From: Saprospiraceae bacterium
GTDB lineage: Bacteria > Bacteroidota > Bacteroidia > Chitinophagales > Saprospiraceae
Assembly: GCA_020629965.1 (NCBI GenBank)
Contig: JAHDCG010000028.1
Location: 23,187 to 55,448 of the forward strand
DNA: 32,262 bases
Direction of reading: 5' to 3'
The position numbers and the translations under genes are program-made. How positions within the stretch are numbered: position 1 is the stretch's first letter; every line of letters begins with the position of its first letter. Below, piece by piece: positions 3,001 to 25,200 of this stretch. Under the pieces are notes generated by a model. It ran no database searches and was not told the DNA's origin. It saw only the letters and a list, made by a program, of their open reading frames with translations.

Positions 3001-5606
3001 GGGTCGGACTCGTCATTATCGACCTGCCCGTTGTTATTGGTATCTTCATCGCCGTCGGCAATGTTGTCGTCGTCACTGTCGGGGTCGGTGGGATTGGTTT
3101 CGCCGGCGTCCTGCACACCGTTTCGGTCGGCATCTTCCGTGCCGTCGGCAATGCCGTCATTGTCCGTATCCGAGTTTAAGGGGTCGGTATCCGTGCCTGC
3201 GTCGTAACTGCCGTCACCGCCCGTTTCCGTATTGTCGGTAATGCCGTCATTGTCGGAATCCGAATTCGGATTAAAAACACCTACATCGTCACCGTCATCG
3301 ACACCGTCGTTGTCGTCGTCGGGGTCTAAGTTATTCGGAATGCCGTCGCCGTCAAAATCGCAGCTCGCGGCAGTATCGACCGGGTCGCAGAAGTCCAAAG
3401 GATTGCTTTCGCCCTCTTCGATAATACCGTTGCGATTGAGGTCTTCGTTACCGTCCGCGATGCCGTCGCTGTCACTGTCGGAACTCAAAGGGTCGGTTTC
3501 TCCGGGGTTTTGCTCGCCGTTGACATTGGTATCTTCAATGCCGTCGGAAATTAAATCGTTGTCCGTATCGGCATCCAAGGGATTGGTATCGGTACCGGGA
3601 TTGTACTGACCGTCGCCGCCCGTCTCGACTATGTCGGTAATGCCGTCGTTATCGTTATCGGTGTGCGGGTCGAAATCGTCGCTATCCAAAGCGTCGCTAA
3701 CGCCGTCATTATCGTCGTCGGGGTCGTTGCCGTTAACCATGCCGTCTTCGTCAAAATCACAGGCACCGACCGTAAAGTCCGGCACACAAGGGTCGGCATC
3801 GTTGGGGTCGAACTGCGGGTGGGTATTCGGGTAATCGGAAAAATAACCGTCGTTGTCGGCGTCCGTGCCGTCACAGGCATTCACCGCAGGGTCGGGGTCG
3901 CAGGGGTTTAGAGGGTCGCTGTCCGAGTTGGGATGGTACTGACCGTCGCCGCCGGTTTCGTCGTTATCGGCGATACCGTCGCCGTCCGAGTCAGAGTTCG
4001 GATTAAAGGGATTCACATCGTCCTCATCATCTACGCCGTCGTTATCGTCGTCGGGGTCGTTGTTGTTGATGATGCCGTCTTCGTCAAAATCACAACCGGC
4101 AAATACCGCATTCGGGCTGCATATATCCAAAGGGTCGCTCTCATCGGCATCGACGGCGCCGTTTTGATTGGAGTCTTCCGCGCCGTCGATGACGTTATCA
4201 CCGTCGCTGTCGCTGTCCAAAGGGTCAGTTTCGCCGGAGTCTTGTGTGCCGTTTTGATTCGCGTCTTCGACACCGTCCGAGATTTGGTCGTTATCGGTGT
4301 CATTGTCTAAAGGGTTGGTATCCGTGCCGACGTTGTACATTCCGTCGTTGCCCGTTTCGATATTGTCGGAAATGCCGTCGTTGTCGGAGTCGGAGTTCGG
4401 GTCGTAAGCATCCGCGTCGTTGATATCGTTGACGCCGTCGTTATCGTCGTCGGGGTCGTTGCTGTTGATGATGCCGTCTTCGTCAAAATCGCAAGTGCCC
4501 GCCGCCGGATTCGGCACACAAGCATCGTTATCATCGGGGTCGAAAGTCGGGTCGGCGGCATCGACATTGACAAAAAAACCGTCGCCGTCCTCATCGCCGC
4601 CCGCACAGGCAGGACTCGCCGGGTCGGGGTCGCAGGGGTCTAAAGGGTCGCTGTCCGTACCGGGATTGAAGACGCCGTCGCCGCCGGTTTCGTTGTTGTC
4701 ACTAATGCCGTCGTTATCGCTGTCGCTGTCGGGGTCGAAATCATCTACGTCGTCGTCGTCCCCGACGCCGTCGTTATCGTCGTCGGGGTCGTCGGCGTTG
4801 ACAATGCCGTCTTCGTCAAAATCACAGGCGGGACCGGTTGCATCGGGGTCGCAGGGATTCAAAGGGTCGGACTCTCCTGCATCGTTTTGACCGTTAAAAT
4901 TTATATCCTCTTCGCCGTCTTCGAGCAAATCGCCGTCCGTATTCGCATTGTTGAGGTCGGTTTCCGTGCCTTCATCCCATACGCCGTTGCCGTTGGAGTC
5001 TTCGAGGCTGTTGGGAATGCCGTCCAGGTCATTGTCCGTACAGTCGGCAGATAAAGTGTCGATGTTGAATTGATAAGTGTACAGAACACCCGCGCCGAGG
5101 TCGAGGGCGTTGATGTCGTTACCGCCGTTAATGTTGGCTTCGTTGCTGTCCGAGTCGGAAATGGGGTCGGTATCGTTATTCACCAAGGATACAATACCGT
5201 CGCACCCGCTCGAACGGCGGAAAGAAAAAAGCGGTGTCGCTACGCCCGCCGTATAAGGAATCGGCGGTTGGTCAGAGTTCATTTGAAAGAAATAGTAAGT
5301 CGCGTCGGGATTTTCCTGAATGTTGGAAATGCTGCCGTTCGGCGTCCAGCCTCCGTTGACGGCGGTAAAATTATCGTAGGAAAAATCCTGCTCCGTGACG
5401 ATGGTCAACTGCGCCGGGGTCGAGGTAATGATGAAGCTGCTCGGGGATTGGTTTTCGTCCAGAGTTACCGAAACGAGATAGGTTTCGCCGTCTTCCTGTA
5501 GGGCGATTTTGGTATATAGTTGCCCGAACGCGGGACTGAGACCAAAAAGCAGGAAAAGCAAAAGTCCTCCGAGTCGTTTTTTATAATGAGTAATAACGGT
5601 AGTCAT
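1..5606 (-). CDS. Giant secreted TSP3-repeat protein with cohesin-like N-terminus (3' end outside window)
   Basis: The frame opens at the ATG at 5606 and stays open to the left edge, giving 1868 codons with no stop seen. Residues 1-29 form a signal peptide (basic MTTVITHYKKR, then a leucine-rich core, ending AFGQ). Residues about 30-172 are a beta-rich domain also found in the two neighbouring secreted proteins, with the shared pattern G..TPLFSF....GC.G...L...DTDP and N.NGGN. From about residue 188 to the edge the protein is almost entirely thrombospondin type 3 repeats (DxDxDGxxD), a calcium-binding rod in known proteins. They are organised in longer units beginning CDFD and ending in ETGGDG, DPLNPCDP or GETDPL blocks. 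The likely role is an extended calcium-stiffened surface or secreted stalk. No catalytic domain is seen. Any sorting domain would lie beyond the window, so export by T9SS is inferred from the neighbours. The start is supported by the signal peptide and an A-rich upstream leader. Confidence 0.9.
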   Translation of the reverse strand, partial: MTTVITHYKKRLGGLLLFLLFGLSPAFGQLYTKIALQEDGETYLVSVTLDENQSPSSFIITSTPAQLTIVTEQDFSYDNFTAVNGGWTPNGSISNIQENPDATYYFFQMNSDQPPIPYTAGVATPLFSFRRSSGCDGIVSLVNNDTDPISDSDSNEANINGGNDINALDLGAGVLYTYQFNIDTLSADCTDNDLDGIPNSLEDSNGNGVWDEGTETDLNNANTDGDLLEDGEEDINFNGQNDAGESDPLNPCDPDATGPACDFDEDGIVNADDPDDDNDGVGDDDDVDDFDPDSDSDNDGISDNNETGGDGVFNPGTDSDPLDPCDPDPASPACAGGDEDGDGFFVNVDAADPTFDPDDNDACVPNPAAGTCDFDEDGIINSNDPDDDNDGVNDINDADAYDPNSDSDNDGISDNIETGNDGMYNVGTDTNPLDNDTDNDQISDGVEDANQNGTQDSGETDPLDSDSDGDNVIDGAEDSNQNGAVDADESDPLDICSPNAVFAGCDFDEDGIINNNDPDDDNDGVDDEDDVNPFNPNSDSDGDGIADNDETGGDGQYHPNSDSDPLNPCDPDPAVNACDGTDADNDGYFSDYPNTHPQFDPNDADPCVPDFTVGACDFDEDGMVNGNDPDDDNDGVSDALDSDDFDPHTDNDNDGITDIVETGGDGQYNPGTDTNPLDADTDNDLISDGIEDTNVNGEQNPGETDPLSSDSDSDGIADGNEDLNRNGIIEEGESNPLDFCDPVDTAASCDFDGDGIPNNLDPDDDNDGVDDGDDVGVFNPNSDSDNDGITDNTETGGDGSYDAGTDTDPLNSDTDNDGIADGTEDADRNGVQDAGETNPTDPDSDDDNIADGDEDTNNNGQVDNDESDPLDQCDPSLLFPACDFDGDGIANGDDPDDDNDGVNDVNDVDDFDPNSDSDNDGIADNTETGGDGMYNPGTDTNPLNPDTDGDQINDGNEDVNHDGQVNGAESDPLNPCDPDSEATACVGTDADGDGYFPDFTADDPLFDPDDSDPCVPDVTAGACDFDEDGLVNDADLDDDNDGVNDNNDVNAYDPNSDSDADGIADNIETGGDGMYNPGTDTNPLDADTDDDLIADGIEDADQNGTQDAGETDPLNPDSDGDDIADGAEDANQNGALDLGESDPLTLCDPNAVYPSCDFDDDGIINADDPDDDNDGVADVDDADDFDPNSDSDNDGITDNDETGDDGTYNPENGDSDPLNPCDPDPDAFACNATDADGDGYYPDYADTDPLYDPNDADACIPDFTVGNCDFDADGIINADDNDDDNDGVSDANDAENYNPNSDSDADGITDVVETGGDGMYNPGTDTNPLDADTDDDLITDGTEDADQNGTQDDGETDPLSPDTDGDGLTDGEEDADQNGMQNDGETNPLDLCDPTATFAACDFDNDGEINETDPDDDNDGVNDGDDVGQFNPNSDSDGDGITDLDETNNETNPLDACDPNSDNPACGAEDNDNDGYAGNFLPTDPNFDPDDNDPCVPDFTTDVCDFDNDGTVNGTDLDDDGDGVTDVNDAAPFDPNSDSDNDGVSDIVETGGDGSYDAGIDTDPLNPDTDGDGLTDGTEDADQNGTQDAGETDPLNSDSDADGIDDGAEVAQSTDPLDQCDPLTTFAACDFDNDGEINETDPDDDNDGVNDGDDVGQFDPNSDSDNDGISDNVETGGDGTYDVGTDTNPLDSDTDDDLIADGIEDADQNGNQDTGETDPLNPDTDGDGLTDGAEDLNRNGQPEAGETDPLNGCDPDATFAACDFDNDGEINEIDPDDDNDGVNDGNDVGQFDPNSDSDGDGISDSDETENATDPLNPCDPNPSVAACIGNDSDGDGYFADFPTSHPNYDPDDADACIPDVTFGGCDFD
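5..5060 (-). repeat. Higher-order TSP3 repeat array within the giant gene
   Basis: The TSP3 motifs are not a simple tandem. A CDFD landmark (TCAAAATCACA or a close variant on the plus strand) recurs 14 times, near positions 4, 316, 711, 1088, 1395, 1795, 2129, 2530, 2953, 3352, 3750, 4085, 4485 and 4815. Spacing varies: about 307-335 bp in short units and 377-423 bp in long ones. Long units add an ETGGDGxYNxGTDTNPLD segment or a GYFxDF...FDPDDxDxCVPD segment. All copies checked are in the same reading frame. The array is a likely source of expansion, contraction and assembly error. Confidence 0.85.
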
Positions 5607-5735
5607 TTTTTGTTTTTTTTGTCCGACGAGAAAGAGAGACGAACTGTTTTTTTGTTGTTGTAGGAATGCTGAAAAAGAGGGGAATTTCTTCAATCGGTAA
5701 AAGAGAAAAAAAAGGGGGGTAAAAAGTCCTACAAC

Positions 5736-5857: not shown

Positions 5858-8800
5858 CTACGGTAATTGCTGATTTATGGCAAAATTCGTCAGGATATTC
5901 ACGTTGCCCGGGTAGGAGTAGATAACCTCGAAGAGCATCGACCCCTGTTCGTTACCCGGTCCCTGATAAATCGAACGACCGTCCAAATCCATATCCGAAG
6001 TCTTGTAGCCCGCGGAGATGAAGTTGGCTAAATTGGACGGGTTTTGCGCATCTAAAAGCACCTGTGAAAAGAGGATGAGATTGTCATTATTCGGTCCCGA
6101 ATAAATCGTTCTTCCGTCGGAGTTCAAATCCCCCATCCACATATAGCGATCGGTGCTGTCTTGGGTGACGTACATCGGGAAAGCACCGAGTGCGGTGTAA
6201 GAGGTATCCGTAAAGTCGAACTCGGTGACAATCGGCGACATTACACCCGCGTCGTTGCTCATTACGCCCAGGTGGTTACGGTGACGTACACTGACGTAAT
6301 ATTCACCCGCTTGGGTGCTGTCGAATTCCAGCAAACTGACCCCGTCCGTGTCCACGATATCACCGTCGCGCTGCACGAGGGCGGAGCGGGTAGCGATGAT
6401 ACTGTCGAGGCTGAGATTGCTGCGTAATTCTACGAAGACCCAATCCACAATAGCATTTTCGCCCGTGACGCCTAACACCGCCGTGCTGTCCGTAATCGTT
6501 TCACCGCCGCCTTCGCCGACGTGGGGAAAGAGTGCTTCCCCCGTAAACAAATCGGTCATGGAAGAGTACGGCTCCGTCAAAGGAATCAAGCCCTGCGCAC
6601 GCAAATCATCGCGCATCAAACCGTCGTTGGTGCCGCGCATGGCGCCCTGCAATTTGACCGTCAGGTCTAAGACCACACCCACACAAGCGGGGCTGATAAT
6701 CGGGTCACAGGGATCGAGCGGGTCACCGTCGTAGCTGTCATCCGTATCGGTTTCCTCTTCGTTGTCGATGGTATCGTCATCCGCATCTTCTTCACCGTCC
6801 GGAATGCCGTCGTTATCGGTGTCGGTGTCGAATTGGTAAACGTAATCGTCCGGGTCGTTAGAAGTACTGATGTAGATTTCCGTCAAATCGGAAAGACCGT
6901 CGTTATCGTCATCCAAATCCGTATCGTTGTCCAAACCGTCCAAATCAAAATCACAGTGACCCAGAGTATCTTGTGACAAAGTCAACAGTGCTTGGTCAGA
7001 CATAACGGTACAGGTAGAGGTGGTCGCAAGCAGGCGGTAGCTGTAATTATTCAGCAAACCTACGCTGTCGATATAAAGGTTATTGGTGGTAGCGCCGGTG
7101 TACAAAGCGTTGTTACTCAGGTCAGTCCAAGTCGAGCTGCCCTCCGGCAATACCTGCCATTGCAAATCCAAAGTACCCGAACCGCCGTTTACGACCGCTA
7201 CGTTGAAAGTGGCGTCGATGTTGGAACATACATCCTGATCGGACAAAGAAGACAGGGTAATCGGCCCTTCTACCGTCAGTTTTGCCGCTGCCGAAGGAAC
7301 GCCGACACAGTTATCGGAACCCAAAACCGCACGGTAGCGATAACCGCCGAGACCCGCTACGTCACTGATATTCAGCGTAGCCGCGTCGGTACCGGAATAG
7401 GGCGATGCGTCGGGTACGGTCGTCCAGGTGATACCGTTGTTGGTACTGAACTCCCAAGTCCAATCCGTACCGCCGCCGCTGCCGTTGGTGCCGGCTGCCG
7501 TGAATGTCGCGCCGTCACCCGAACAAACTATGACGTCTTCGGGGTCGGTGGTGATTGCCAAGGGGCCTTCTACATTTAAAAGTGCCGGGTCGGAAATGAC
7601 CGTACCGCAACTACCGACGGTCATGACCGCACGGAATAAGTAGTCGTCGTAGCCGAGTACATCGTCGATAGACAAGGTGTCCGTCGTGACACCGTTGACG
7701 TTGGTTACGTTAGTCAAATCAGTCCAGGTCGAACCGTTATCCGTAGATTGTTGCCATTGATACTCGATGTTGCCTTCGCCGGGGTTGCTGACTTGTACAT
7801 CGAAAGTAACCCCCAAACCGGAGCAGGAAACAACATCGTCGGGCTGACCGTCAACGTCGAAGCTGACCGGACCTTCCACGGTCAGTCGGGCACTATTGGA
7901 GAATACCGGGTCACACACACTCGATTGAGTCGCCAAGCGATAGTAACGACCGCTCAAACCGGTCAGGTCATTGATAGTCAAAGTAGTAGTAGTCACATCC
8001 GAGTAAACCGCGCCGTCGGACAAATCCGCAAAGTTGATATTATCGGAGCTGACCTGCCATTGATAGGTCATGGTACCCGCCGCACCTGCCGTAATTTCGG
8101 GAGCGGAAGTGAATGTCGCACCGTCGGTAAAACAAGTTGTCAAATCTACGGGATGCGCATCGTTGGCATAAGTAATCGGGCCTTCTACGGTCAGATTGGC
8201 TACGCCGGAAATTTCTTGCGAACAAGCACCCGACTGAACGACATCGCGGAACAATAAACCGTTGAGACCGGCTACGTTGGTGATGCTCATGTTGTCGGTA
8301 GTCACACCGTTGTAGGTAGTGTTATTGACCAAATCGAACCAATCGGTGCCGTTGGTACTGAATTGCCATTGGTGCGTAATCGTACCCGCACCCGGGTTAG
8401 TCGTCGTTACGGAGAAGCTCGTTCCGTCTCCCGCACAAACCGTCTGTGCCGGAATGGTCTCACTGACTCCGATTTCACCTTCTACGACCAAGAGAGAGCT
8501 GTTGGTGTACAAGGTATCACACAAGGTCGGCACGACACGCAAGCGGTAGTAGTTGCCGTTAAATGCGGTCGGAATGTCGTAAATGGTGATACTCGTAGAG
8601 GTGGTATTCAGATAATTGACGCCGTCGTCGGTCAAATCAGTCCAGGTCACTCCCTCATCGACGGATACCTGCCATTGCTTTTCGGCGGCAGCTTCACTGA
8701 CGGTTACGGAATACAATTCCAAGTCATCCGCACAGGCGATGCGTTGGGCATCCAGATTTGAAACCGATACTTCGGGCGTCACGGTCAGTTGTGCCGAGGG

Positions 8801-11800
8801 CGATGCCGTTGCCGCACATTCGCCGGTAAAGACCTGCGCACGGAAGTAATAACCGTCCAGACCGGCCACGTTACTGATACTCAAAGTGTCGGTGTTGTTG
8901 CCGTTAAATACTTCGTTATTGGGTACGTCCGTCCAGTTCACTTCGTCGGTCGAGTACTCCCAAATGTAATCTAAAGTACCGCTGTTTTCGAGGGTTACGC
9001 CTACGTTGAAAATAACCGAATTGCCCGCACATTGTGCGGCATCGACCGGCAAACTCGGATCGATGGTAACGGGACCTTCTTCAAATAAGACCGCCGGCAA
9101 AGATGCGATTTCCAAACATTCGCCGGTTTCGGCGGTCAGGCGGTACTGCGTCAGGTCGCGGTCGGTCACGTCACTGACGTTCAGAACAGTCGCGGTAAAA
9201 TCCGAGTAGATGCCGCCGTGGGTAGTCGCCGTGATGTCTGTCCAGTTCACGCCGTTGTCTTCGCTGTATTGCCACAGGTAAGTCAGAGTACCCGCCCCTG
9301 CATTGGAAACCGCAGCAGAAAACGACGCTGTTTCTCCGGTACACGCACTAAAGTCTTCGGGGTCTGCGCTGACGGCAATCGGACCTTCCGTCACTAAAGT
9401 TACCGTTGCGGACTCATCGACGTTACATTCCGCCGTTTGGAAAGTCACGCGGTAATCATTGCCGTTGAGACCGTTGACATCCGCGATAATCAAAGTATTG
9501 GTTTGTACACCGCCGTAGGTCGGACCGTTGTTCAAATCGACCCAAGCCGTACCGGTGTAGTATTGCCAGCGGTATTCGACGGTACCCGAGCCGGGGTTAT
9601 CGACCGCAATCGAAAATTGTGCGGAATTGCCCGCACATTCGGTGACATCGACGGGTTGCGCACTGACGGTCAAAGGACCTTCTACGCGCAGCACCGCTTC
9701 TTCGCTCGCCGTATCTTCACATTCGGAAGTCTGCGCCAAAACCCGGTATTGATAATTGTCCATAGTCGCCGTAGTCGTCGCTACGTTGAGTGTCTGCGTC
9801 GTTGCGCCGCTGTAAGGAGCCGTGTCGGTCAGGTCTGACCAAGTCGCGCCGTTATCGGTACTGAGTTGCCATTGATAAGCCAAAGTGCCTTGTGCGATAA
9901 ACGCTTCGGCGGTAAATGAGGTCGCGTTACCCGCACACAGCTCTGTGTCGTCGGGGTTGGCGGTAAAGTCAATCGGGCCGTACACGTCGAGTACGGCGGG
10001 CCCCTGAACGGTCTGCGTACATTCGTCGGTACTGATGAGGACTTGGTATTGAAAACCGTCTAAACCCGTGACATCGTCGATACTCAAACTGCTGCTGAAG
10101 ACGCCGTTGTAATTGGTGTCGTTGGCGAGGTCGGAGAAAGAAGTACCGCTGTCGGTACTGATTTGCCAGATGTAGTTAACGGCATCCGCGCCGTCGTTTC
10201 CGGGGTTATCGACTTCTACGAAAAACAAAGCACCCGCGCCCGCACATTGCGAAGCGTCGGCAATCGGAGTAGTAACGGTCAACGGGCCGGTCACGGTCAG
10301 CAGTGCCTCGTCGGTGTAAGTTTCCGTACAGTAGTTACTGCTTACTTCCATGCGGTAGAGGTTTCCGTTGAGACCCGCCACCGAAGAAATATCGAGGTTT
10401 AAAGTCGTCACGCCGTTGTAAGGCGCAGCATCGGTCAGGTCTGTCCAGGTCGCACCGTCATCGGTACTGATTTGCCATTGCAGGTTCATGCTTCCCGTGC
10501 CGGTATTTTCCGCAAATGCGGTAAAAGTATGGCTGTCCGTGCCGCACAAAGCAACATCCATGGGGCTTGTGCCGATAGACAAAGGCCCGTCCACACTCAA
10601 GGTCGCCTGACGACTGGTTTCAAAAACACAAGCCTCCGTACCGATTAAACACTGAAACCGGTAGTCGTGTAAGCCCGTCACATCGTCGATGACCAATGTG
10701 GCGGTATTGATACCGCTGTAATTCGTTCCGTCCAAAACGTTGAAGTAATTGACCCCGCCGTCATTGGAGTATTGCCATTGATAAGTTAAAACGCCCTCAC
10801 CGTCATTGGCCGCGGTTGCGGTAAAAGAAGTGCCCGAACCGCCGCATTGTTCGACATCTGCCGGCAGCGAAGTATCGGTAAAGTAAATATCGCCTTCTAC
10901 GGTGATTAGTGCGCCGCCCGTGATGCTGTCTGCCGCGATTTCACAACCCGAGTCATCGAGAATAGTGACGATGCTGTAATGGGTCGTTGCTGCGGGAGAA
11001 ACCGTAATCGGGTCGCCGCTGACATAATCTTCGACTACGATATTATTCGTGCCGTCGGTGTACGTTACGTCGTAAGGCGACCATCCGCCCTGAATATCGA
11101 TGTATAAATCGACGGACTCCGCTTCGCAAATTGCGATAGAGTCACCCATGACCGCCGTTTCGACATGTATCGGGTCACAAACATCACAGAGGTCGGAAGC
11201 ATCGCCTGCGTCGAAGACGCCGTTACCGTTCGTATCTTCAAAGGCATCCGGAATACCGTCCATATCGCAATCCGCGCAAGACCAGGCTTCGAGGTTGTAA
11301 TTATCTACCCAGTTGACGAAAGAATTGGGCGAGGTGCCGAAGTCGATAACCGCAAACTCGTTACCGGGGTTGTTGTCGGCCGAGTTATTCGGTACGTTGA
11401 AAGGGTCGTTGTAATTGTCAATAATTGAAAGGTCTTCAAAACAACCGTTGACCGACTCGAAAGTAAAGAGTAAGGTCTCGATGCTGTCGGTGTAATCCAT
11501 GTTGGCGGGGTTACTGATACCGACGGAGTAGTAGTTGAAACCGGGTGCTTCGTCGGGTGAATGCACGAAGGTCGGATTGGAATTCCAGATACCCGTCACG
11601 CTGGTAATGTTGTGCAGGGAGTCGGTGTTCGTGATTTTGAGAGTGACCTGCGCTCCCGTAGCGGTTTGGGTAGAGGCGGTGGGCACATAACCGTTGGCGG
11701 GCATGGCGTAAATTCCCCACTGTGTGCCGCTCTCCATGAGTTGCACTTTGAATTTGAAACCCGGCGAAGATGCCGTTTGCGCCGATGCCGACATACCGCC

Positions 11801-15100: not shown

Positions 15101-18100
15101 CCAAATCGACTGTTTTCCAATGGTGAGCCACCGAAACGGTTCCGCTTTCGCCGATAGTTTCGTCGTTTTCATCGGTAAAATTACCTGCCGAACCGACGGC
15201 AAAAATCGCCGTGGTTTCATCGCTGTGTACCGAATTGCTCTCACTGCTTTGTTCTTCCTGTATGAATAAATCGACCGATGCCGAGCCGGCACCGTTCATC
15301 CGTACCGCAGCCGGGTCATTGTCGATAGTCGATTGCATGGTCGTCAATAAAATCGGCGTTTGGGCAAACGTTTGTCCGTAATCGACCGGAACCCACGTAT
15401 TACCGACCTGTGCGGTCAAGGCGGAGAAATCCCCGGCACTCATCCCCTCCTCTATTGCCGTCCAGGCTACGGATTCGGGCTTGTGAATGCCGTCGTTGGC
15501 TTGTTCTTCCTGTAGTTTTATTTCAAATTGTGAAGAGACAACATTGCGCGTGCGCACGGTGACGGGTGAGCTTTCGTTGGTCGTTACTACCTGATTAAAA
15601 ATCAGCGGAGTTGTCGCGAAGTCAATCGGTAACTGTACGGTTTTCCAACGATGTGTGACATTTTCAATGACCCCCGCCACCATTTTTTTGCCGTTGGGCA
15701 AGGTGTAGATACGGAAAATGTCCGGCGCCGTAATGTCCGTAATTTCGACGGTTTGAGAAGCCGTTCCCGTATTGCCGCAGGCATCGGTCGCCGTCCAGGT
15801 ACGCGTCAGAGTGTAGTCGTGCAGGCTGCAGCCGTCGTCGCCCTGCGTGTTCGTTTCTTCCAAGCCGAGGTTAATACTTTGGCAGTTTTCGTAGGCAAAA
15901 ACGAAAGGTGCCTGCGGGATGACTTCGTCACAGAAGACCGTATCGGCGGGCGGCACGTTAAGCAATTCGGGAGCAATGTCATCCGAAAATTGTAAAGTCA
16001 CCGTCGTGCTTGCGCAGCAATTCGTATTGTCGTCGCAAAGTCGATAGGTGAATATTTCGTCGGAACAAACGGGACTGCCCGGGGTGTAAGTAAAATCACC
16101 GTTGTCTTGCAGAGCGACGGTTCCGTTGGCGGGTTGGTCGATGACGGTCAGCGTTACCGCGCCGAAGTTGCTGTCGTTGTGCGTTGCATTTTCCGCAAAA
16201 ACAAAACCGCTGCAACCGACCGCAAATACATCCGGCGTGACCACGGGAGCAACCGGCGCACTCACCGAAACCGCGCCGTAATCGTTGACGCAACCGCCCC
16301 CGGCGTAGCGAACGGTCAAAACGTAAGAACCTTCCGACAAATCGGTAAAATTCGTTTTATTGATATTTTCCCAAGTCGAACCGCCGTCTAAACTGACCTC
16401 GAAATCTTCCCCTTCGGGTACGAATGCCGAAATTTGAATTTCACCGTTTGCCGCGTTGCAATTTGTATTCGGAGTAACGTCCGCAGTTAATATTTCGGGG
16501 CGAGGACGAACCGTGACCGTCTCGGTATCGGTAACGGAACAGCCGTCGGTATCGGTAACGGTCATTTGTACATCGATATGCGTCGCCAAAGTGCCGGGCG
16601 GTACGTCGAAAGTCACATCGTGCGGACCTTTGCCCGTCAGATTTTGCGGAGCGGCATAAATACCGAAATTCCAAGTGTAATTCATATCCGAGCCTGCCTC
16701 CGCAGCGGCGAAGGTGTAAGTTTGGTCGTTGCACAAAAAGCCGGCGGCGGAAGTCGGAAAGGAAGAAATCTCGGCAATAATCGCATCGGTACAATCCGGG
16801 TCTTCGCAATCCGTCAGACCGTCTAAATCGTCGTCGTAACCGTTGTCACAGATTTCGGGGCAAGACGCGACGGTTACCGTATAAGTTTGGGTATCCTGAC
16901 ATCCGTCGGCGTCCGTGTAGGTCAGCAGATAGGTTCCCGCGCTGTTGACCGTTGCGCCGGTAAAACTGAAATAGGCGGCAGCGGTCGGGGTATTGTCCGT
17001 CGAATTATCGGGCAAAGTCAGGACAAAACTTCCCGACAGGGATGATTGTGCTCCGAGGTCGAAAGATTGCCCCGGACAAAGAGACACGGTGTTTTGGTCG
17101 AGCCAGGTGCCGTTGTCGATGCGGACACGCGGTTGCAGTACGGGATTGGCATTGACCGTGACGGTAAAATCGTCGGTATTCGTGCATCCGTTGCCGTCGG
17201 TGACGGTGACGGTGTAGGTCGTCGTCGCGGTCGGCGTCACGTTTTTATCCGAGCCGCTGCCCTGTCCGTTGCTCCAGGCGTAGGTGTAAGACCCGTCGCC
17301 CCCCGAGGCGGAGGCGGTCAGTACGGTGGTTTCGCCGCTGCAAATGACGCTTGCGGAAGTGTTGATATTTACGTCCAAGCCGTTAAAACAAACGGGGTCT
17401 TCGCAGTCGGTCAAACCGTTGCCGTCATCGTCGATGCCGTTGCCGCAGACTTCGGTACAGTCCGAAACCGTCACTTCAAAGTCTTGCGTCACACTGCACC
17501 CGTTCCCGTCCGTGTAGGTCATCAGGTAGTTACCCGCCGCAGCGGGGGCGGCATCGGTAAAGTCAAAAAAAGTGTTGCCGCTCGGGGTATTATCGACGGT
17601 GCCGTCGGGCAGGGTCAGACTGATGCCGTTTTGTAAACCGACCTGACTGCCGAGCGAGAAATCATCTCCTTCACAAACTCCGAGTACACTTTGATTTACC
17701 CAACCTGCGCCGTTGACATTGGTGTAAGGAGTGATGGCAGTAGTCTGCACGACATCAATCGTTAAACTGCCGACGGCCGTGCAGCCGTTATCATCCGTGA
17801 CAGTGACCGTATAAGTCGTGTTGACGGTCGGCGAAACCGTCTTACTGCCGCCCGTGCCCAACCCGTTGCTCCATGTGTAGGAATAGGGCCCGGTGCCGCC
17901 CGAGCCGTAGGTGTAGAGCACGGTATTGTCGCCGGCGCAGAGTGAGTTATCGGAAGTAACGACGTTAGAAGTCAGACCGGCAAAACAAGCCGGGTCGTCG
18001 CAGTCGGTCAAACCGTTGCCGTCGTCGTCGATGCCGTTGTCGCATATTTCTCCGCAATTCTCGGCGGTTCCTCCCGCGTCGGCGGGCGGATTACCACCGG

Positions 18101-21100
18101 TGATAAGAATTTTATCGAGCTGTGTACCGTTTTCCCGACCGGCGATTTCTATGGTATTGACACCTGCGGGCAGACAATAAACGACGGCTTCGTTGGCTTG
18201 ATTGCTGTCATGTACGCGCTGCCAAGTCCAATTGCCGCTGAGGGGAATGTCGTTAAATTTAATCCACTCTTCGCCGTTTGCTCTGACCCAAAAACTGTCG
18301 TCGTTTCCGTTAGCGGCTCGGGTACGCAGGTATATTTTGTAAGAACCCGCCGTAGTGATTTCGGGAGAAAAAACGAGGTGTTCCGCAGCGGCGGAAGCGG
18401 GGGCGTTGTAGTTATCGGTACCGTTATAAACGACATAATTTCCCTGCGAGGCCGTATTGTCGGCGACCGAACCGAAAACCGAGGGCAGATTACCGCAGTC
18501 GGGTTCTAAGTATATCTCGTCGGTTCCGACGTTTTCGCACAGTTCTTCGTCGCAGACTTCTTTCCAGGTGATGTCGTCCAAATTCAAACCGACGGTAGTG
18601 CCGCCTACGTTAAAGCGGAGGGCAACGGAATTATCGACGGTTTCGAGGGCGTCGAATTCAAAAGTAAAATTTTGCGGATTAACGGTTAAGTCCACATCCG
18701 TACTGAAAAATACGGGGAAGGGGTCGTAGTCGCCCTGTGCGGTGACGTTGACGGATTTTGCGGCATCCGCTTTTCCCGAAAAACCGAAACGGTAGCGTTT
18801 TCCGTTTTCGATGCTTAAATTTTTCTGATAAAACTGCGTGTGCCAGTCGGTACCGCTTGCCGAAGCGATGTCGATGCGGGCAGAGGCTTCGCCCGTCATC
18901 TGACCCGAATAATCGACGGAGAAGTCGGCCGCATTCCCTTGAAAATTGCTCAATTCGTAAGGGTATTTACCCGCATTAAATTGAGAATTATCTATTCTGT
19001 TGGGGCAGGAAAAGCAATCCGAGTCTTCGCTGTCCACCAAGCCGTCGCCGTCGTCGTCCGTTCCGTTATCACAAATTTCGCGACAAATACCGATGCGCAC
19101 ATCATCCACGGCTACCTCCGTTTTGCTGCCGTTGCCGATATCGGCCGCCTCGATGTAAAGATAAACGGTTTTGCCCGCGTGCGCGGAAATATCCACGCTG
19201 ACCTCCTGCCACACGGCACTGCGCACCGAGGGGTTTCCGTTTTCGGAAACGAAGGTCTGCAGGACGACATCGTTGGTTTTGTCGCGCAGTTGAATGTTCA
19301 AATAATCCGCAGCATCGCCGTTGGTGGCGTCGGCGTAATACCAAAAGAAATTCATATTGATGCACTCGGCACCGTCGGGCAGGCAGACATCGGGCGACTG
19401 TGCCGTGGCGGGGCCGCCGTCCAAATCTTCTCCGCTGACTAATCCGGTTGCCAAAACCCGACTTCCGCCATGGGCGGCTAATTCCATAATCGTACCGTCG
19501 CCGGTGCTGTAAGGACTCGGAATACCGATGAGAAATTCGCCGTCGCCGGCATTTCCGTCATTGCTCAGAGTCCAACTGTTGGGACCGTTCTGATTTTCAA
19601 AATTGGCGACGTATAACACCCCCGAAGTCGGTACGGAATAGCAGTCGGTACAATTTTCGTCAACCTGTCCGTTGCCGTTGTCATCGATACCGTTGCCGCA
19701 AATTTCGATATTGCAAGCCGTCGTCATTTTCAAAGACCAGCGATTGATGCTGCCGCCGTCTTCGGGGTAAGTATCCTGTACTCTTAAAATCCAGGTTCCC
19801 GTGACGGTTTCTCCGTCAAAATCGGAAAATGAACCCGCCGGTTGAAAATATCCTCCGGAGGCGGGCGGACAGGTAAAAGCGGATGCGGCAGCTTCGTCGT
19901 CTAAGTTGACGTGAATGTCATTTTCGCCCGCACAAATAGCATTTATCAGAGAGACGACTGTCCCTTCGGGGCTTTCGAGGGTGATTACTAAATCGTTGAT
20001 GTAGCTGTGAGTGATGTTGAGGTCGAGAATATTCAAATCGGTAATCGTACCCGACTCCGAAATATTGATAAAAGAAGAAACAGTACCCGTCTCGGCACTC
20101 GGAATATTTTTGGGCAGGTCGAAGGCCGCCGAAACCAGAGAAGAACAATCCGCGTCATAACAATCCACCAATCCGTCGTTGTCGTCATCTATACCGTTTG
20201 CGCAGATTTCGGGTGATTGTGCGCAGTTAATCGGTCCGGTCAAATCCCATTTATTGCCCGCTAAGGCGACTTCCGCCCCGTAAACAGCACCCGTATTTTT
20301 GTTGATACGGCGAAGCCCGTCAACACCCACGCCCGTGGCCCACAGTACCCCGTCCACATCGACGGCGAGTTGGAGATTTTCCAAGGCATTAGAATTGATA
20401 ACTTCGTAGGTGCCGATTTCGAGATAATATTTAAAAAAAGAAGAGGAAGAAGCGGCGTTTTGGTTGCCTACTCCGCCGTAAATAACAGTATAACCGCTTT
20501 CTCCCGAAACGATTAAATCGCCCCAGGAGGTGTCGTAATAAATCGGTACGTTCAAATTTACGGCGCTGCCGTTGACGGAGAGGCCGTCGAAAGCGAGACG
20601 CAAACGGTAGATTTTGGGGTAGCTTCCGGGGTTTCCGTTTTCCGTTCCCATGTACAACCAACCGTTGTAATAAGCACCGCCGCCGCTCGACAGCGACTCG
20701 CCGGCGGGTATTTGCCCCGCCAAATCGACCAAAGTGCCGTGTACTCCCGTCGCGGGAATCCAGTAATGTACTTTTTGTCCGATGCCGTAGTAAATGACGG
20801 AGGCATCGGGGTTGGCGGCCAGGGCATTGAGATTGGAAGTAGTGTAAGGCGAAGTTGTGACTACGGTTTGCGTGCCTGTGGTGAGGTTAAACTCCAGAAT
20901 TTGTCCGGCATCACGTGCTACATAAAGTATAGTTTCGTCGCAACCATCGAGGGCGGCAAACGAGGTGCCGACGGTATTATTTCGGTTATGGTTTAAGGTT
21001 TGCTGCAGTTCGCCGCAGAGAGTACGAAAAAAGGAAGGGTTTTCTTTCGCAGATAAAGAAATTTGCCCGGAGCATAAACACAGCAGGCCGACAAGAAGCC

Positions 21101-21200
21101 TTGTCAGCGATTTGAATAAGGTACGTTTTAATTTCCGAGGTACATGTGGGCAATGCGCGCATGAGTCGGAGACAGAGTGCTGTTTGTAAAGTCTAATCAT
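12135..21200 (-). CDS. Giant 3021-aa secreted multidomain carbohydrate/protein-binding protein
   Basis: I place the start at the ATG at 21200. The frame extends upstream to an ATG at 21377, but that stretch looks non-coding, and 21200 leaves a signal-like segment (basic RKLKR, core LLVGLLCLCSG, near residue 50). Domains in order: propeller-like repeats (~75-325); P/homoB-like domain (~355-497); MAM-like beta domain (~525-705); CBM4/9-like domain (~731-883); CBM6/35-like domain (~889-1037); SprB/PKD-like repeats (~1074-1650); Ig/HYR-like domains (~1650-1830); three H-type-lectin-like repeats (~1840-2093); HYR-like (~2100-2250); TSP3 rod (~2256-2745); and the dockerin-like module shared with the 1999-aa protein (2746-3021). 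Short linkers of the form EICDNGIDDDGNGLTDCDDP separate the early domains. No catalytic domain is recognised, so glycan-binding adhesin or scaffold is inferred. The N-region of the signal peptide is unusually long (~33 residues). Domain names rest on motif resemblance only. Confidence 0.9.
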   Translation of the reverse strand: MIRLYKQHSVSDSCAHCPHVPRKLKRTLFKSLTRLLVGLLCLCSGQISLSAKENPSFFRTLCGELQQTLNHNRNNTVGTSFAALDGCDETILYVARDAGQILEFNLTTGTQTVVTTSPYTTSNLNALAANPDASVIYYGIGQKVHYWIPATGVHGTLVDLAGQIPAGESLSSGGGAYYNGWLYMGTENGNPGSYPKIYRLRLAFDGLSVNGSAVNLNVPIYYDTSWGDLIVSGESGYTVIYGGVGNQNAASSSSFFKYYLEIGTYEVINSNALENLQLAVDVDGVLWATGVGVDGLRRINKNTGAVYGAEVALAGNKWDLTGPINCAQSPEICANGIDDDNDGLVDCYDADCSSLVSAAFDLPKNIPSAETGTVSSFINISESGTITDLNILDLNITHSYINDLVITLESPEGTVVSLINAICAGENDIHVNLDDEAAASAFTCPPASGGYFQPAGSFSDFDGETVTGTWILRVQDTYPEDGGSINRWSLKMTTACNIEICGNGIDDNGNGQVDENCTDCYSVPTSGVLYVANFENQNGPNSWTLSNDGNAGDGEFLIGIPSPYSTGDGTIMELAAHGGSRVLATGLVSGEDLDGGPATAQSPDVCLPDGAECINMNFFWYYADATNGDAADYLNIQLRDKTNDVVLQTFVSENGNPSVRSAVWQEVSVDISAHAGKTVYLYIEAADIGNGSKTEVAVDDVRIGICREICDNGTDDDGDGLVDSEDSDCFSCPNRIDNSQFNAGKYPYELSNFQGNAADFSVDYSGQMTGEASARIDIASASGTDWHTQFYQKNLSIENGKRYRFGFSGKADAAKSVNVTAQGDYDPFPVFFSTDVDLTVNPQNFTFEFDALETVDNSVALRFNVGGTTVGLNLDDITWKEVCDEELCENVGTDEIYLEPDCGNLPSVFGSVADNTASQGNYVVYNGTDNYNAPASAAAEHLVFSPEITTAGSYKIYLRTRAANGNDDSFWVRANGEEWIKFNDIPLSGNWTWQRVHDSNQANEAVVYCLPAGVNTIEIAGRENGTQLDKILITGGNPPADAGGTAENCGEICDNGIDDDGNGLTDCDDPACFAGLTSNVVTSDNSLCAGDNTVLYTYGSGGTGPYSYTWSNGLGTGGSKTVSPTVNTTYTVTVTDDNGCTAVGSLTIDVVQTTAITPYTNVNGAGWVNQSVLGVCEGDDFSLGSQVGLQNGISLTLPDGTVDNTPSGNTFFDFTDAAPAAAGNYLMTYTDGNGCSVTQDFEVTVSDCTEVCGNGIDDDGNGLTDCEDPVCFNGLDVNINTSASVICSGETTVLTASASGGDGSYTYAWSNGQGSGSDKNVTPTATTTYTVTVTDGNGCTNTDDFTVTVNANPVLQPRVRIDNGTWLDQNTVSLCPGQSFDLGAQSSLSGSFVLTLPDNSTDNTPTAAAYFSFTGATVNSAGTYLLTYTDADGCQDTQTYTVTVASCPEICDNGYDDDLDGLTDCEDPDCTDAIIAEISSFPTSAAGFLCNDQTYTFAAAEAGSDMNYTWNFGIYAAPQNLTGKGPHDVTFDVPPGTLATHIDVQMTVTDTDGCSVTDTETVTVRPRPEILTADVTPNTNCNAANGEIQISAFVPEGEDFEVSLDGGSTWENINKTNFTDLSEGSYVLTVRYAGGGCVNDYGAVSVSAPVAPVVTPDVFAVGCSGFVFAENATHNDSNFGAVTLTVIDQPANGTVALQDNGDFTYTPGSPVCSDEIFTYRLCDDNTNCCASTTVTLQFSDDIAPELLNVPPADTVFCDEVIPQAPFVFAYENCQSINLGLEETNTQGDDGCSLHDYTLTRTWTATDACGNTGTASQTVEITDITAPDIFRIYTLPNGKKMVAGVIENVTHRWKTVQLPIDFATTPLIFNQVVTTNESSPVTVRTRNVVSSQFEIKLQEEQANDGIHKPESVAWTAIEEGMSAGDFSALTAQVGNTWVPVDYGQTFAQTPILLTTMQSTIDNDPAAVRMNGAGSASVDLFIQEEQSSESNSVHSDETTAIFAVGSAGNFTDENDETIGESGTVSVAHHWKTVDLAFTYHNPVVIANSLTYNGNQAAVVKVRNVTPTSFEVSVQEWDYLDGAHAQETVGWLVIEGSLPLINQANCNAVPPPLTIGTELIATDNCDSNVPLSFVETDNDADCATRHLVRSYTTVDECGNGTVLNHTIYIQDTAHPLFTAPADVTVLCDEDRNDLTLTGDVTDETDNCAENLQAVYTDNLVNLNGDDCATGYLTRTWSLTDDCGNSFVREQIITLYENADRDRDGSPDLYDLDRDNDGIPNADETEGDSDGDGIPNDRDSDSDNDGIPDAVEAGFIDLQGDGRVDNILLAGWDNDGDGFAEGFDADDSNADATASDNFDPTSLAQDRDQDGVPNFLDLDSDNDGIPDLIEVYGADTNGDGIPEYPTPGDASSMPDADADGYHDLYDSDDDGEDGQDDPNDPLIAFDGNIYSSGQSGNLLDTDGDGIPNYLDTDSDNDGICDLIEIGGIDTDGDGKIDFGTEFADNNQDGLHDNYSSFPLIYTDADGATIDGKPEDVNSDGSAYYLADVDYDNFPNYLDLDSDGDGIHDIAEVGGLAHDVNHDGKFDAFSDANGDGFSDAAQQLLLITTEPDGSDNHGRPTDGTDTDSSPYRTSHADGTMGDADSEVDVDADGDGIANPYDFDSDGDLIPDATEDTNADGMYQPGETHPYDRDTDNDLLSDGIEDANKDGIYTADETDPRASDTDGDTFDDGTEDADRNGFVNGNETDPRDPCDPILSTACLGVAVRPKVKLQGAMLQNGGDGTMRDDLRALGLLPLTEPYSEFANYVHVGGGGGETVDPAVFTVTGNNAIVDWVFVELRDSLLGGTVISTRSALLQKDGDVKDIDGVSDLFFADVQAQYYYVTVRHRNHLGMTTKLPLLLTRTPAEIDFTDVATPVYGENPARIIFGEYQMWAGDFNQDSRVIYQGPDNDLFPILIDVLTHPSNVNILYNYVVQGYYATDLDMDGKVIMQGPDNDPSNILFHGILSEPNNINLLDNYIILEKTPE
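12138..12965 (-). other. C-terminal module with paired dockerin-like loops (second copy)
   Basis: This codes for residues 2746-3021. It shares KLQGAM, MRDDLRALGLLPLTEPYS, HVGGGGGET, NAIVDWVFVELR, TRSALLQ.DGD and VRHRNHLGM with the 1999-aa protein. The two loops are GDFNQDSRVIYQGPDND and TDLDMDGKVIMQGPDND. The first has Ser where Gly is usual after the third acidic position. Each is followed by P.LIDVL.HPSNVN or NILFHGILSEPNNIN, so the duplicated unit is about 45 residues. Confidence 0.75.
14922..15683 (-). repeat. Three H-type-lectin-like repeats within the 3021-aa protein
   Basis: These are residues about 1840-2093. The units share W..V.......F...P, then V+.RNV...F....QE..., then H..E...W..IE. 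The middle unit is the most diverged and lacks the final W. The pattern resembles the H-type lectin fold (GalNAc binding in snail agglutinin), but sugar-binding residues cannot be assigned by eye. Confidence 0.5.
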
Positions 21201-22240
21201 CCGGATAGGAGTTTTTGTTTTTTTGTCAGCCGAGCAGATAAAAATCGGAAAGTTTTTTGGAGGAAAAATAAGAATTGTGACAGGGCTGTTGAGGCTGTCG
21301 GATACGCAAAGCCACGGCGTGCGGTGCACACTGTGTTTAATTGCCCGCGTTTTCCGTGAGCTGATTCTGTTAAACAATACGAAGACCGGCGTACAAAAAG
21401 CAGAAATACTTTTTACGCTGATATATTGTTTCCGTTATGAATAGAGGGGAGGGAGCATTCGGTCTTTTACCGGAAAATTCCGATTGCCGAAATAAAATTA
21501 AAAAGGTTTACAGGATAAATAAATATCGTCATTCGAAAGAAGCACGGTTTATCGACGTGAGGTCAGGAGACCGGTCTTGCGAAACGACAAAGCAATTGTG
21601 TATGAAATTGTTGGGAAAAAAATTCTTAGAGTAAAGAATAAGAGTTGAGAAAAAAATAAAAATCAGAATATACTCACATTTGTTTTCCGCCTGAATCATC
21701 GAATCCTTACGGTTTGCCGTTTTTTATTGATTAAAAAAGCAGGGAGGCATTAAAAATGTTTCTGATTTGAATAGGCTAAGTCCTCTTTGGGAGAAAGAAG
21801 TGTGGAGTGTGTTTTTTGAATGTGCTCATGTTTTAGTTTGTATTAAAAGGAGTTTTATCTTGAAAATCGGGTCAACTGATGAAAGGAGGGAAATCTCGGA
21901 GGGCTTATTATAAATCAGCAAACCCTGTGCCAAAAACTGATTTAAGATGTACGAATTTGTGACAATTTTTCGAAAGAAGAATCTTTTTTTACCTTTTCAC
22001 CGTAATTTGGCTTCCTTTTTGTACCGTTTTTCATACTCACATTAATTTTTCCGGTCTTGTTCCTCCCGCTTCGCTGAAAACAGCTCGTCCTGCTCTTCTT
22101 TCCGCCGGATGATGTCCTCGTCGGTCGATTCCTCGGTTTTGTTTTTCCTTTTTCCAAAAGGAGCACGAAACAGACAAATTCAGAATAATGCCCTGCTTTG
22201 TTCCGGGTTCATCTGTGTCGTGTTCTCAAAGAACAAAACA
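21201..22240. other. Divergent intergenic region, no convincing gene
   Basis: About 1 kb lies between two divergently transcribed secreted-protein genes. Short open frames here lack signal peptides, family resemblance or coding-like composition. It is AT-rich around 21600-22050, with small inverted repeats: ATTCTT/AAGAAT near 21621-21640 and AAATCAG/CTGATTT near 21912-21945. It should contain both promoters, but I found no clear TTTG / TAnnTTTG pair. A degraded gene or a small RNA cannot be excluded. Confidence 0.5.
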
Positions 22241-25200
22241 ATGACAAAGTTCTGCAACAAAATTTTACTTCTTTTTTGCCTGCTTATTATAACGCTGCCC
22301 GCTCTCGCGCAAGTCAAAGCAAAAATCGAATTGCTGCCCGACAATACCACTTATCGGCTCTCGATACGGCCCGAGGTTTCCTACCCCGCCCCGACCAATG
22401 TCACCAATAATGCGCAGTTTTCTTTTTTAGTGCCCTCGGGCGGTTTTGCCGTCGGCAGTGTCACGAGCAGCAACGGTTTGTGGAGCAACAGCAACACCGT
22501 GCTGTCTCCGAGCGAAAATCCGGAGTTCGATTATCTGGTTTTTAACTTAGTCAGCGGCACCACCGATATCACCTACGTCAACGGTCAGGAAGTCGCCCTG
22601 TTCGAGTTTACCAACGCCGGTGCCTGTACCGGCGAACTCAGGCTGACCGAAACCGACGACCCCTTTTCTCCGCCTAACTCCCAAAGCGTCAACATCGGCA
22701 ACCTACTGACTGTTCTCGGTGCCGGACTCGGCTTTAATCCTTATGACGGCAGCTACGATGAGCCGGGCAACTGCGAGGGCACGGACTCGGGCTGCGGCAT
22801 TACCGTCACGAATGTCGGTTTTGTCAGCCCTTCGACCTGCGGTACGGCAGACGGCAGCATCTCGATTACAGCGACCGGTAGCAACGGTATTCCTTTGCAA
22901 TACAGCATCGACGGGGCAGATACCTGGCAAGCCGGCAATACTTTCGACAATCTGGCGGCAGGTGATTTTTTTGAAATACACGTCAGAGATATGGCGGCAA
23001 TCTGTACGTTTGAATACGGAGAAGTGGATTTGGCGGCACCTTTGGCGGCGGTCGTTACTCTCTACGAAACCGGCAAACCCGACTGCAACGGCGGTACCAA
23101 CGGCTTTATCAATGTCGAAGCCGGCAACGAAAATAACGACCCGTTGGAATACAGTCTCGACGGTACGGACTGGCAGAGTACCGGTTCTTTTACCGGTTTG
23201 GCGGAAGGCACTTACTTCCCCGTCATTCGCAATTTGAATAATAACTGTCTCGCGGAATTGGGTCCGGAAGACCTGACGGAAGATTGCAGCACCTCCTGCC
23301 CCGACAACGATAACGACGGTCTGTGCGCCGATGCGGACTGCGACGACAACAACCCCGACCTGCCCGCGACACCCGGCACACCCTGCGACGACGGCAACGC
23401 CGCTACGCTGAATGATGTCATACAGGCAGACGGCTGCGGCTGTGCGGGTCAGGAAGATACGGGCACACCGCTTTGTGTCGCTGATTTGGATATCGTACTG
23501 ACCGATGACGGACGCTACGAAGTCGGTCTGACTTCCAACGTCAGTTATTCTTTCCCGAATAATATCACCTCGACGGCGCAGTTTACCGTGCGCGCGCCGA
23601 GCGGCGTATTTGAACCCGGCGACTTTGTCAACGCGCTGCCCGGCGTCATTTTCGAGCAAAACTCGACGACGCTGTCTCCGCCGGAAGCACCCGAATACGA
23701 TTATTTTTCTTTTGGCTTAATCACGCCCGGCACCCAGGGTATTCCTTATCAGACAGGCGAGCGCACGGCACTTTTTTCGTTTGTCAATGCGGCAGATTGC
23801 GACGACCTGCCGCTTGCTCTGACAGACAACGCGACCGACCCTTTCTTTCCGCCAAACTCTCTGAATATCAACTCGGGGCAGCAAATTACGGTCAGCGGAT
23901 GGGGTTCGGAAGCACCCCTTTGTTTGGCGGCAAACTCTTCCGTAAATTGCCCCGACAACTCGCCGCAAGACCCGCTTTGTATAGTCAGCTACGGTATCGA
24001 CAAATTGCCCGACGGAACTTTTCGGGTGTCACTGACTCCGAGCGTTACCTACTCCGCTCCGGATAATATTACCTCGACCGCCCAAATCACCGTTAAAGTA
24101 CCGACGGCGAGCGGCGGCAACGACGGTTTTTCCGTCACCGAATTTACTAATCTGGTGCCGAATGTTCTCTTTGGTGAGGCAAGCCGACAAAACGCCCCGC
24201 CGGAAGACCCGGAACACGACTATATTTCTTTTGCGCTGCAAACATTGGGTACCTCGGGCATTACTTATGAGGCAGGAGTCGCGGTTCCTCTGTTTTCTTT
24301 CCGCAACGGCGGCAGTTGTGAGGATCGAGCTGTCTTTTTAATGAATAATCTCGACGACCCTTTTCTGCCGCCCAACTCGGCGGACGCCAACATCGGGCAG
24401 CAAATCACGATTGCGGGTTGGGGTGCGGGCGGTACGCCGGTCTGTACGACAGCAACGAACATCGACGATTGCAATGTCTTTACCCCGGAAACCGAAATCA
24501 TCACCGTTAATATCGACCCGGACGCACCGAACGAAGTGTGTTTTACCGAAGTCGTCGATGTGCCGAACGGCGTCGGTACGGTTTCGCTGTGCAACGCTCC
24601 GGCGAGTACGGAAATTTTGCTCACGGAGGGCAGCAGTTGTATGCAGGTTACCGCACTCGGCGATTTTTCTGCCGCCGAAGAAATCTGCGTTGTGGTCTGC
24701 GATGCCGTGCAAGCGGAAATTTGTGACACGACTTTCGTTTATTTGTGTCCCGCCCTTACGGCAAATGCCGCATCCGATTTGTTGTGTCCGGGCGAAACGA
24801 CGACCCTGAACATCAGCGGCGGTACGGGTAATTATGTTTGGTCGCCCGCAGCGGGTCTGTCTTGTACGGACTGTGCAAATCCGACGGCTTCTCCGAGCGA
24901 AACCACGACCTACACCGTGACGAGTACGAGTACTTTTTGCACGAGCAGCGCAACGATAACCGTCGAAACGGAATTAACGGATTTTGTGGAAGAAGTCAAT
25001 ACAACGGGCGCAAATTGCGGCAGCGACAACGGACAAATCGCGCTGACGCTGTCGGCGGAGGATGCGCCGTACAGCATGACGCTCGCCCTCGAAACGACGG
25101 TACTCGCGGAAGACATCCCAAACTCGGAGACGAGTTATGCTTTTGAAAACTTGGCACAGGGTGACTATAATTTATACGTTACCGATAATACCGGCTGCAT

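Follow-up and report, generated by a model that had tools for sequence, protein, structure and literature searches.

How is a surface protein of thousands of residues held on the cell when it carries no known sorting tail? This question is raised by a stretch of 32,262 nucleotides from a Saprospiraceae bacterium, hereafter the window, which spans positions 23187-55448 of contig JAHDCG010000028.1 (C67) in a genome of 6.52 Mb (291 contigs, 99.4% complete). Its list of open reading frames (ORFs) holds three large minus-strand genes, encoding proteins C, B, and A, and one plus-strand gene, encoding protein D. Two modules recur among them: COH, a domain of ~150 residues, and DOC, a stretch of ~270 C-terminal residues. 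We propose that COH is a divergent cohesin, that DOC is its X-dockerin partner, and that the cluster builds an ordered, surface-attached chain; we give this reading a probability of roughly three in four. Actual binding, calcium dependence, the pairing of plug with socket, and a function in adhesion are parts of the proposal that we infer from sequence, models, and comparison among genomes.

The modules are arranged in a simple order. Along the minus strand, protein C (DOC only) is followed by B (COH and DOC), by A (COH, TSP3-like repeats, and DOC) and, left of the window, by G (279 residues; COH and a Por_Secre_tail). Protein F, also to the left, has 685 residues with COH, SprB, and CHU_C. 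Protein A leaves the window at its left edge and crosses an assembly gap of 100 N (C67:23087-23186); strand, TSP3 continuity, and position indicate that the frame past the gap belongs to it. Profile searches find no COH in C. By eye, A, B, D, F, and G have signal-peptide-like N-termini, and a sorting domain of the type IX secretion system (T9SS) is present in D, F, and G.

The original prediction for this locus described a cohesin-like domain occurring five times in three secreted proteins: N-terminal in the TSP3 protein (A) and in the 1999-residue protein (B), and in triplicate in a 1599-residue protein, which is D read from its second ATG (22241). BLASTP and profile searches agree on this arrangement, with three copies in D and one each in B and A. 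Each of the 10 pairs of copies gives a significant BLASTP match (E 1.7e-7 to 3.5e-44), with 27-46% identity where the two align, and the shared features first noticed, Y, LF.F, C, DP, and N.G, are all among the invariant columns of the five copies. When a five-row profile is run against the whole genome it returns seven copies, all on C67: the five of the window and those of F and G.

The fold of COH resembles that of cohesins. An AlphaFold2 model of D1, the first copy in protein D, was built on 82 of 85 non-redundant COH stretches (alignment A5; three weak or short ones omitted); it has nine strands, a predicted local distance difference test (pLDDT) score of 95.8, and a predicted TM score (pTM) of 0.90. 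When Foldseek's top 1000 chains were re-aligned with VIA-align, for which Z below 8 can, by the tool's own note, reflect a common arrangement, ranks 1-28 were all cohesin or scaffoldin entries (Z 8.3-10.2, root-mean-square deviation 2.8-3.9, 115-137 residues). Of these, 26 are titled cohesin or cohesin-dockerin complex and two are cellulosome scaffoldin fragments (4fl4_I and 3kcp_A), whose aligned part is presumably their cohesin. A homologous COH, taken from the pair model described below, is matched by Foldseek, at E <= 0.001, to 11 cohesin entries and to two chains of the 4fl4 scaffoldin, 13 in all, with a best E of 1.4e-5. The original prediction, which an unrelated fold would have contradicted, is borne out at this point, and the models support COH as a divergent cohesin by fold; a shared fold does not by itself establish function. 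Two other matches were set aside: that of the COH profile to interferon-activable protein 202 (E 0.019) was taken as chance, and that of protein A to CglD (E 3.3e-75, below its cut-off) as TSP3-repeat composition.

DOC consists of a ~180-residue N-terminal part followed by two acidic loop-helix repeats. The modules of B and C share 49% identity over the last ~270 residues. Three copies were found in the genome, all on C67 (A, B, and C), and the closest named relatives of the window modules belong to Saprospiraceae and Saprospirales metagenome-assembled genomes (MAGs). The DOC half of the pair model (residues 1-270) aligns with 4u3s_B (Z 8.3, 143 residues, 19% identity), 4wi0_B (Z 7.9), and 2b59_B (Z 7.4). 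These matches cover 143-148 residues at 16-19% identity and come from type II cohesin/X-dockerin complexes, in which entry titles and chain lengths identify the aligned chains as the X-dockerin partners. Because of this alignment we regard DOC as an X-dockerin-like dyad; helices 195-204 and 240-250 of the model come after the two acidic loops. The dockerin-like C-termini of the original prediction are accordingly present, in B and C within the window and in A beyond it, although each is a 270-residue dyad of X-module and dockerin and none is a bare dockerin.

In the second loop of DOC, the first acid, which is D227 in protein B, is the same in every row of alignment A9 (54 of 54). The loop pattern, which itself requires D at the first position and permits the last acid at 15-17, is present in 116 of 141 DOC modules; its third residue is N or D in 110 and its fifth is D or N in 114. 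In protein A, the first of the two repeats is degenerate. Among complete modules, 108 of 112 end at most 10 residues from the C-terminus, and four are internal. From 99 DOC stretches, 54 were used in A9 and 51, beside eight pairs, in alignment A6. Pfam Dockerin_1 (PF00404) has no match on the contig up to E 1, and an NCBIfam scan gave no cohesin or dockerin match for the COH/DOC pair. A match of the DOC profile to LpxD (E 0.16) was taken as chance. Elsewhere, the X-like half of DOC continues into another kind of dockerin end, canonical-looking (L069, L070, L072, and L075, in some genomes of the order Chitinophagales), or into a short variant end (L059, L060, L062, L063, and L065); the X-part seems to be a shared carrier of several dockerin types.

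COH and DOC are predicted to dock. At L142, a related locus outside the window, a single stop separates a DOC gene from the COH gene that follows it in frame; the natural DNA, read through the stop, gives 482 residues, which were folded as one chain. The pair alignment had 103 rows, with DOC rows on the DOC part and COH rows on the COH part (at most two stray residues), and A6 drew on 44 of the 85 non-redundant COH stretches. The chain reached pLDDT 88.6 and pTM 0.84; in the linker (273-315), pLDDT falls below 50. For 272 plus ~164 ordered residues, modules placed independently of each other would give pTM ~0.59-0.62; from the value of 0.84 we estimate an inter-domain error of about 3 A. The complex between the two modules that had been envisaged for this locus is in this sense predicted, although the pair modelled is that of L142 and not that of the window.

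Gene order ties the two modules together in other genomes. A DOC alignment (A4) was the sole bait in a named genome collection, where it drew at least 586 pattern matches and at least 455 relatives; the best 80 loci were kept, some from related genomes and so not independent, and COH was sought in them with an iterated profile. Of these 80 loci, 44 have COH at E<1e-3. Where at least 1.2 kb of sequence follows the DOC gene (100 genes), a COH gene lies directly downstream in 62 cases (same strand, at most 600 bp), two of these adjacencies resting on weak COH matches (E 0.015 and 0.2; Kordia and Winogradskyella). The 84 neighbour steps are polar: 62 lead from a DOC-bearing to a COH-bearing gene, 6 from COH-only to DOC-bearing, 7 from DOC-only to DOC-only, and 9 from COH-only to COH-only, while a step from COH plus DOC to DOC-only occurs in 0 of 84. 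The window order, DOC, then COH plus DOC, then COH, recurs in five loci (L115, L135, L140, L144, and L153) and is extended in four (L154, L155, L163, and L173).

The family is found in named species of Spirosoma, Runella, Flavilitoribacter, and Thiothrix. The last of these lies outside the Bacteroidota, in the Gammaproteobacteria (T. caldifontis and T. fructosivorans; L152 and L171). The two genomes have 7 and 9 DOC modules, and several of these lie on contigs that lack COH, which suggests transfer between phyla and dispersed cargo. Read by eye, the COH-less ORFs directly 3' of some DOC genes look mostly unrelated; at L175:9092-10066, downstream of a DOC gene, there appears to be a divergent COH with a T9SS-like tail, which was left uncounted.

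Co-occurrence extends beyond adjacency. Across 198 sampled genomes of the order, a seven-row COH profile from this genome matches 8, all with DOC, and a broader COH profile matches 11; DOC is found in 61, of which 15 have a best E<1e-50. All 11 genomes, like the 8, fall among those 15 (Fisher p 3.9e-15, for a threshold picked after viewing the table and with relatedness ignored). At the level of the phylum, 395 genomes were sampled: 39 have DOC (E<=1e-20) and 4 have COH. These 4 coincide exactly with the genomes whose DOC reaches E<1e-70, and in the three besides the source genome COH lies directly downstream of DOC. Many other DOC matches cover the X-like part only (about 1-180), and some then differ in the dockerin-like end; what accompanies COH therefore seems to be the dockerin half of the window type and not the X-part. 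The modules also diverge together: within loci, DOC distance and the distance of the downstream COH correlate at Spearman 0.79 over 26 comparisons in 20 loci, with a nominal p of 1.7e-6 for comparisons that are not independent.

Sorting tails were sought in both kinds of protein. A C-terminus is visible in 59 COH-only ORFs, and the scan covered the 50 in which at least 60 residues follow COH. Por_Secre_tail is matched by 25, CHU_C by 9, and IPTL-CTERM by 3, where one protein may match two. IPTL-CTERM is a surface-sorting motif, and its matches include a Thiothrix COH-only protein (L152:17442-19574). In DOC proteins, 0 of 80 scanned C-termini (of 134) match a sorting family. Protein D, foreseen as a trivalent, T9SS-anchored scaffold, does combine three COH copies with a CHU_C domain, but it is not the sole anchor candidate, as the contig has three T9SS-tailed COH proteins.

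How might these parts work together? We propose that the DOC of one gene's product would plug into the COH of the next gene's product, forming a chain from C through B and A to G. Protein C would be the primary component and G the anchor fixed to the cell; A and B would be adaptors, because both carry a socket and a plug. Proteins D, with three sockets, and F, with one, are both T9SS-tailed and could hold more chains or other DOC proteins. The final product would be a cell-surface adhesion fibre or coat. The cohesin/dockerin-type assembly suggested at the outset finds support in the cohesin-like fold, the predicted docking, and the comparative-genomic linkage of DOC to COH.

Several observations weigh against this proposal, and some would suit other explanations. 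HMMER profiles run against PDB sequences find no cohesin for COH and no dockerin for DOC, and Pfam Cohesin (PF00963) has no match in proteins A, B, and D or on C67. In the second DOC loop the last acidic residue comes at position 16 (116 of 141 modules with the motif), whereas the canonical dockerin loop has 12. Foldseek alone gives D1 a weak list, with a best E of 0.0039 and no match at E<=0.001, that mixes CBM3-bearing enzymes, cohesins, and integrins; in the re-alignment the first non-cohesin, a GH20 enzyme at Z 8.1, ties with the lower cohesins. The mixed list and the lack of sequence similarity to cohesins would fit an unrelated Ig-like or CBM3-like adhesive domain that accompanies DOC through tandem duplication of adhesin genes. 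We consider this very unlikely, given that cohesins come first in the re-alignment, that the homologue's significant Foldseek matches are all cohesin or scaffoldin, that docking of the L142 pair is predicted with confidence, and that DOC-COH adjacency is repeated in distant lineages. The docking itself is read from the pTM of a single pair at a related locus, a value that says nothing of the interface geometry. DOC could also be an outer-membrane sorting signal, akin to a T9SS-type C-terminal domain, with COH proteins as cofactors or in an unrelated adhesive role. Its place at the extreme C-terminus of proteins in whose scanned ends no known sorting tail was found would suit such a signal. We judge this unlikely because of Thiothrix, where the same DOC is found and a COH-only protein ends in IPTL-CTERM; the resemblance of DOC to X-dockerins and its docking on COH in the model argue against it as well.

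The comparative evidence has its own gaps: no COH neighbour is found at 36 of the 80 bait loci and 38 of the 100 DOC genes, and the counts from the broader COH profile lean towards association because that profile was grown from DOC-baited loci. At most 37 of the 50 scanned COH-only tails fit any of the three sorting families (one without a match is encoded by the last gene of L115), and nine further COH-only ORFs stop less than 60 residues after COH, outside the tail scan. The next-gene and same-protein correlations are nearly equal (0.76 and 0.72; n=26 DOCs) and so do not tell one pairing from the other, and tandem duplication of gene pairs could be another source of DOC-COH co-divergence. 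It is accordingly possible, if on balance doubtful, that the modules bind without an ordered relay: COH and DOC would be promiscuous and collect proteins in any order, as in a cellulosome-like display, or A and B would self-polymerise. The unseparated correlations fit promiscuous docking, as do the three sockets of protein D and the several Thiothrix DOC genes on contigs without COH. So do genomes with many DOC modules and few multi-COH scaffolds, among them one with 99 first-look DOC candidates (G116; 13 of 13 scored matched) and two with scaffolds of 4-5 COH (G076 and G098). What speaks for the ordered chain over promiscuous docking is the polarity of the neighbour steps (62 versus 6, and none from COH plus DOC to DOC-only) and the within-locus co-divergence of each DOC with the COH of the following gene.

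Table 1. Coordinates of the proteins, modules, and adjoining genes (window positions unless marked C67).
Feature	Position	Strand	Remarks
Protein C	12135..21377	-	3080 aa; first gene of the minus-strand chain; ends in DOC; proposed distal protein
DOC module of C	12138..12926	-	Extreme C-terminus; X-like module and two dockerin-like repeats
Protein B	5858..11857	-	1999 aa; N-terminal COH, repeats, TSP3-like stretch, C-terminal DOC; proposed adaptor
COH domain of B	11267..11764	-	BLASTP and profile
DOC module of B	5861..6673	-	C-terminal; similarity to DOC of C
Protein A	3..5693	-	Likely start 5606; N-terminal COH, long TSP3-type repeat region; C-terminal DOC beyond the window
COH domain of A	5028..5519	-	BLASTP and profile
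DOC module of A	C67:21738-22535 (beyond window)	-	Ends the frame past the 100-N gap
Protein D	22109..27040	+	1643 aa; three COH, SprB-type repeats, CHU_C T9SS type B tail; TIGR04131 match
COH domain D1 of D	22310..22783	+	BLASTP and profile; folded stretch 22304-22783
COH domain D2 of D	23468..23950	+	BLASTP and profile
COH domain D3 of D	23972..24472	+	BLASTP and profile
CHU_C / T9SS type B sorting domain of D	26789..27028	+	Pfam E 2.3e-27; TIGR04131
Rep3-family plasmid replication initiator	27164..28240	-	Pfam E 1.6e-32; adjoins the cluster
ParG-like and ParA-like partition genes	28621..29512	-	Adjoin the D side of the cluster

The cargo of the proposed chain points to adhesion or display. 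Protein C has the Pfam domains P_proprotein, Big_9, and CBM_4_9 over cut-off. Protein B has only a marginal Reelin-type match, across repeats whose long run looks Ig-like by eye, and protein A is TSP3-like. A Pfam scan found no cellulase domain in the window DOC proteins, and a cellulosome proper was rejected on this ground. An adhesion fibre or coat is likely, rather than a cellulose-degrading complex, given the length, the repeats, and the adhesin-like character of the products; for the window system, adhesion at the surface or display as a coat is the likeliest role. Ten DOC-only proteins from related MAGs carry other cargo: two M43 peptidases, two Kazal, one acetyl-xylan-esterase-like, one sortilin, one FG-GAP, two with only DUF11/PKD or SdrD_B types, and one without a match. 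An enzyme-displaying version of the system is possible in some relatives. Domain-bearing DOC proteins are seen at L131, L129, L141, L133, L168, L157, L124, and L149, in Chitinophagales and related Bacteroidetes MAGs.

The genomic setting is that of a possibly mobile element. C67 could itself be a plasmid, or a plasmid could be integrated in it, because Rep3, ParG-like, and ParA-like genes adjoin the cluster; for the same reason the cluster may be a transferable surface-building kit. Among the matches listed, the best relatives of the replication initiator are on Emticicia, Runella, and Aureispira plasmids (37-42% identity), and the DOC of B has no match among PLSDB plasmids. By eye, the left end of C67 appears to hold aldo-keto reductase, GH10-type hydrolase, and sulfatase genes, which keeps the plasmid reading tentative. 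At 31003-32262 another secreted-looking protein begins, with a DUF6923 domain, and is open at the contig end. Pfam models detect 21 cohesins and 19 dockerins over cut-off in this genome, none of them on C67; by sequence these appear to form a second, conventional cohesin-dockerin set. This set is spread over contigs C133, C6, C196, C82, C172, and others, and includes a 2349-residue ORF with seven cohesins on C133; at least nine ORFs seemingly match both dockerin and cohesin, judged by equal frame length and position, with some matches below cut-off.

What would such a system mean beyond this locus? Tentatively, and with a little less than an even chance of being right, we suggest that a COH/X-dockerin family missed by standard domain models is distributed across Bacteroidota and Thiothrix, that it builds ordered fibres in which gene order is assembly order, and that a host-specific tailed anchor (T9SS or IPTL-CTERM) replaces individual tails. 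A distinct family with its own X-dockerins would supply many new candidate cohesin-dockerin pairs and would explain how tailless surface proteins of this size are retained on the cell. The relay offers a testable case of gene order specifying the order of proteins in a fibre. Non-cellulosomal cohesin- and dockerin-like modules are reportedly present in all three domains of life, by the title of Peer et al. 2009. Titles and abstract openings, which cover the literature partially, held no description of the COH/DOC pair in Bacteroidota or Thiothrix. A paper on a rumen Bacteroidetes states that its genome yielded neither cohesins nor dockerins, in agreement with other genomes of the Bacteroidetes (PMC5831590), and Pfam dockerins are known in some cockroach-gut Bacteroidota (PMC10266427).

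Known systems frame the proposal. The window cluster resembles the T9SS-exported SprB/CHU_C adhesins of Bacteroidota in the SprB repeats and CHU_C tails of D and F. Those adhesins are single proteins held by their own tail, whereas the giant proteins of this cluster have no such tail and seem to be held by a partner that does. A parallel in architecture is clostridial: in Acetivibrio cellulolyticus, ScaA, ScaB, and ScaC form a relay of primary, adaptor, and anchoring scaffoldins in which the primary ends in an X-dockerin and the anchor has SLH modules (PMC3413522). The cluster would likewise have a primary with an X-dockerin, adaptors, and a surface-tailed anchor, and by fold COH is similar to type I/II cohesins and DOC to type II X-dockerins. 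The window family has no detectable sequence similarity to the clostridial relay, and it differs in its longer dockerin loop and in its T9SS or IPTL-CTERM tails instead of SLH; its cargo in the window is adhesin-like without cellulases, and its genes stand in presumed assembly order. Extracellular, non-cellulosomal sets are described for anaerobic methanotrophic (ANME) archaea, whose scaffoldin-like proteins have up to 5 cohesins, and for their syntrophic sulfate-reducing partners, where a role in adhesion is proposed (PMC9012536, PMC10553843). The ANME and sulfate-reducer sets were found with standard domain libraries, whereas COH and DOC have no cohesin or dockerin match in Pfam or NCBIfam, and the window family differs from them in its X-like module and in its conserved gene order from DOC to COH.

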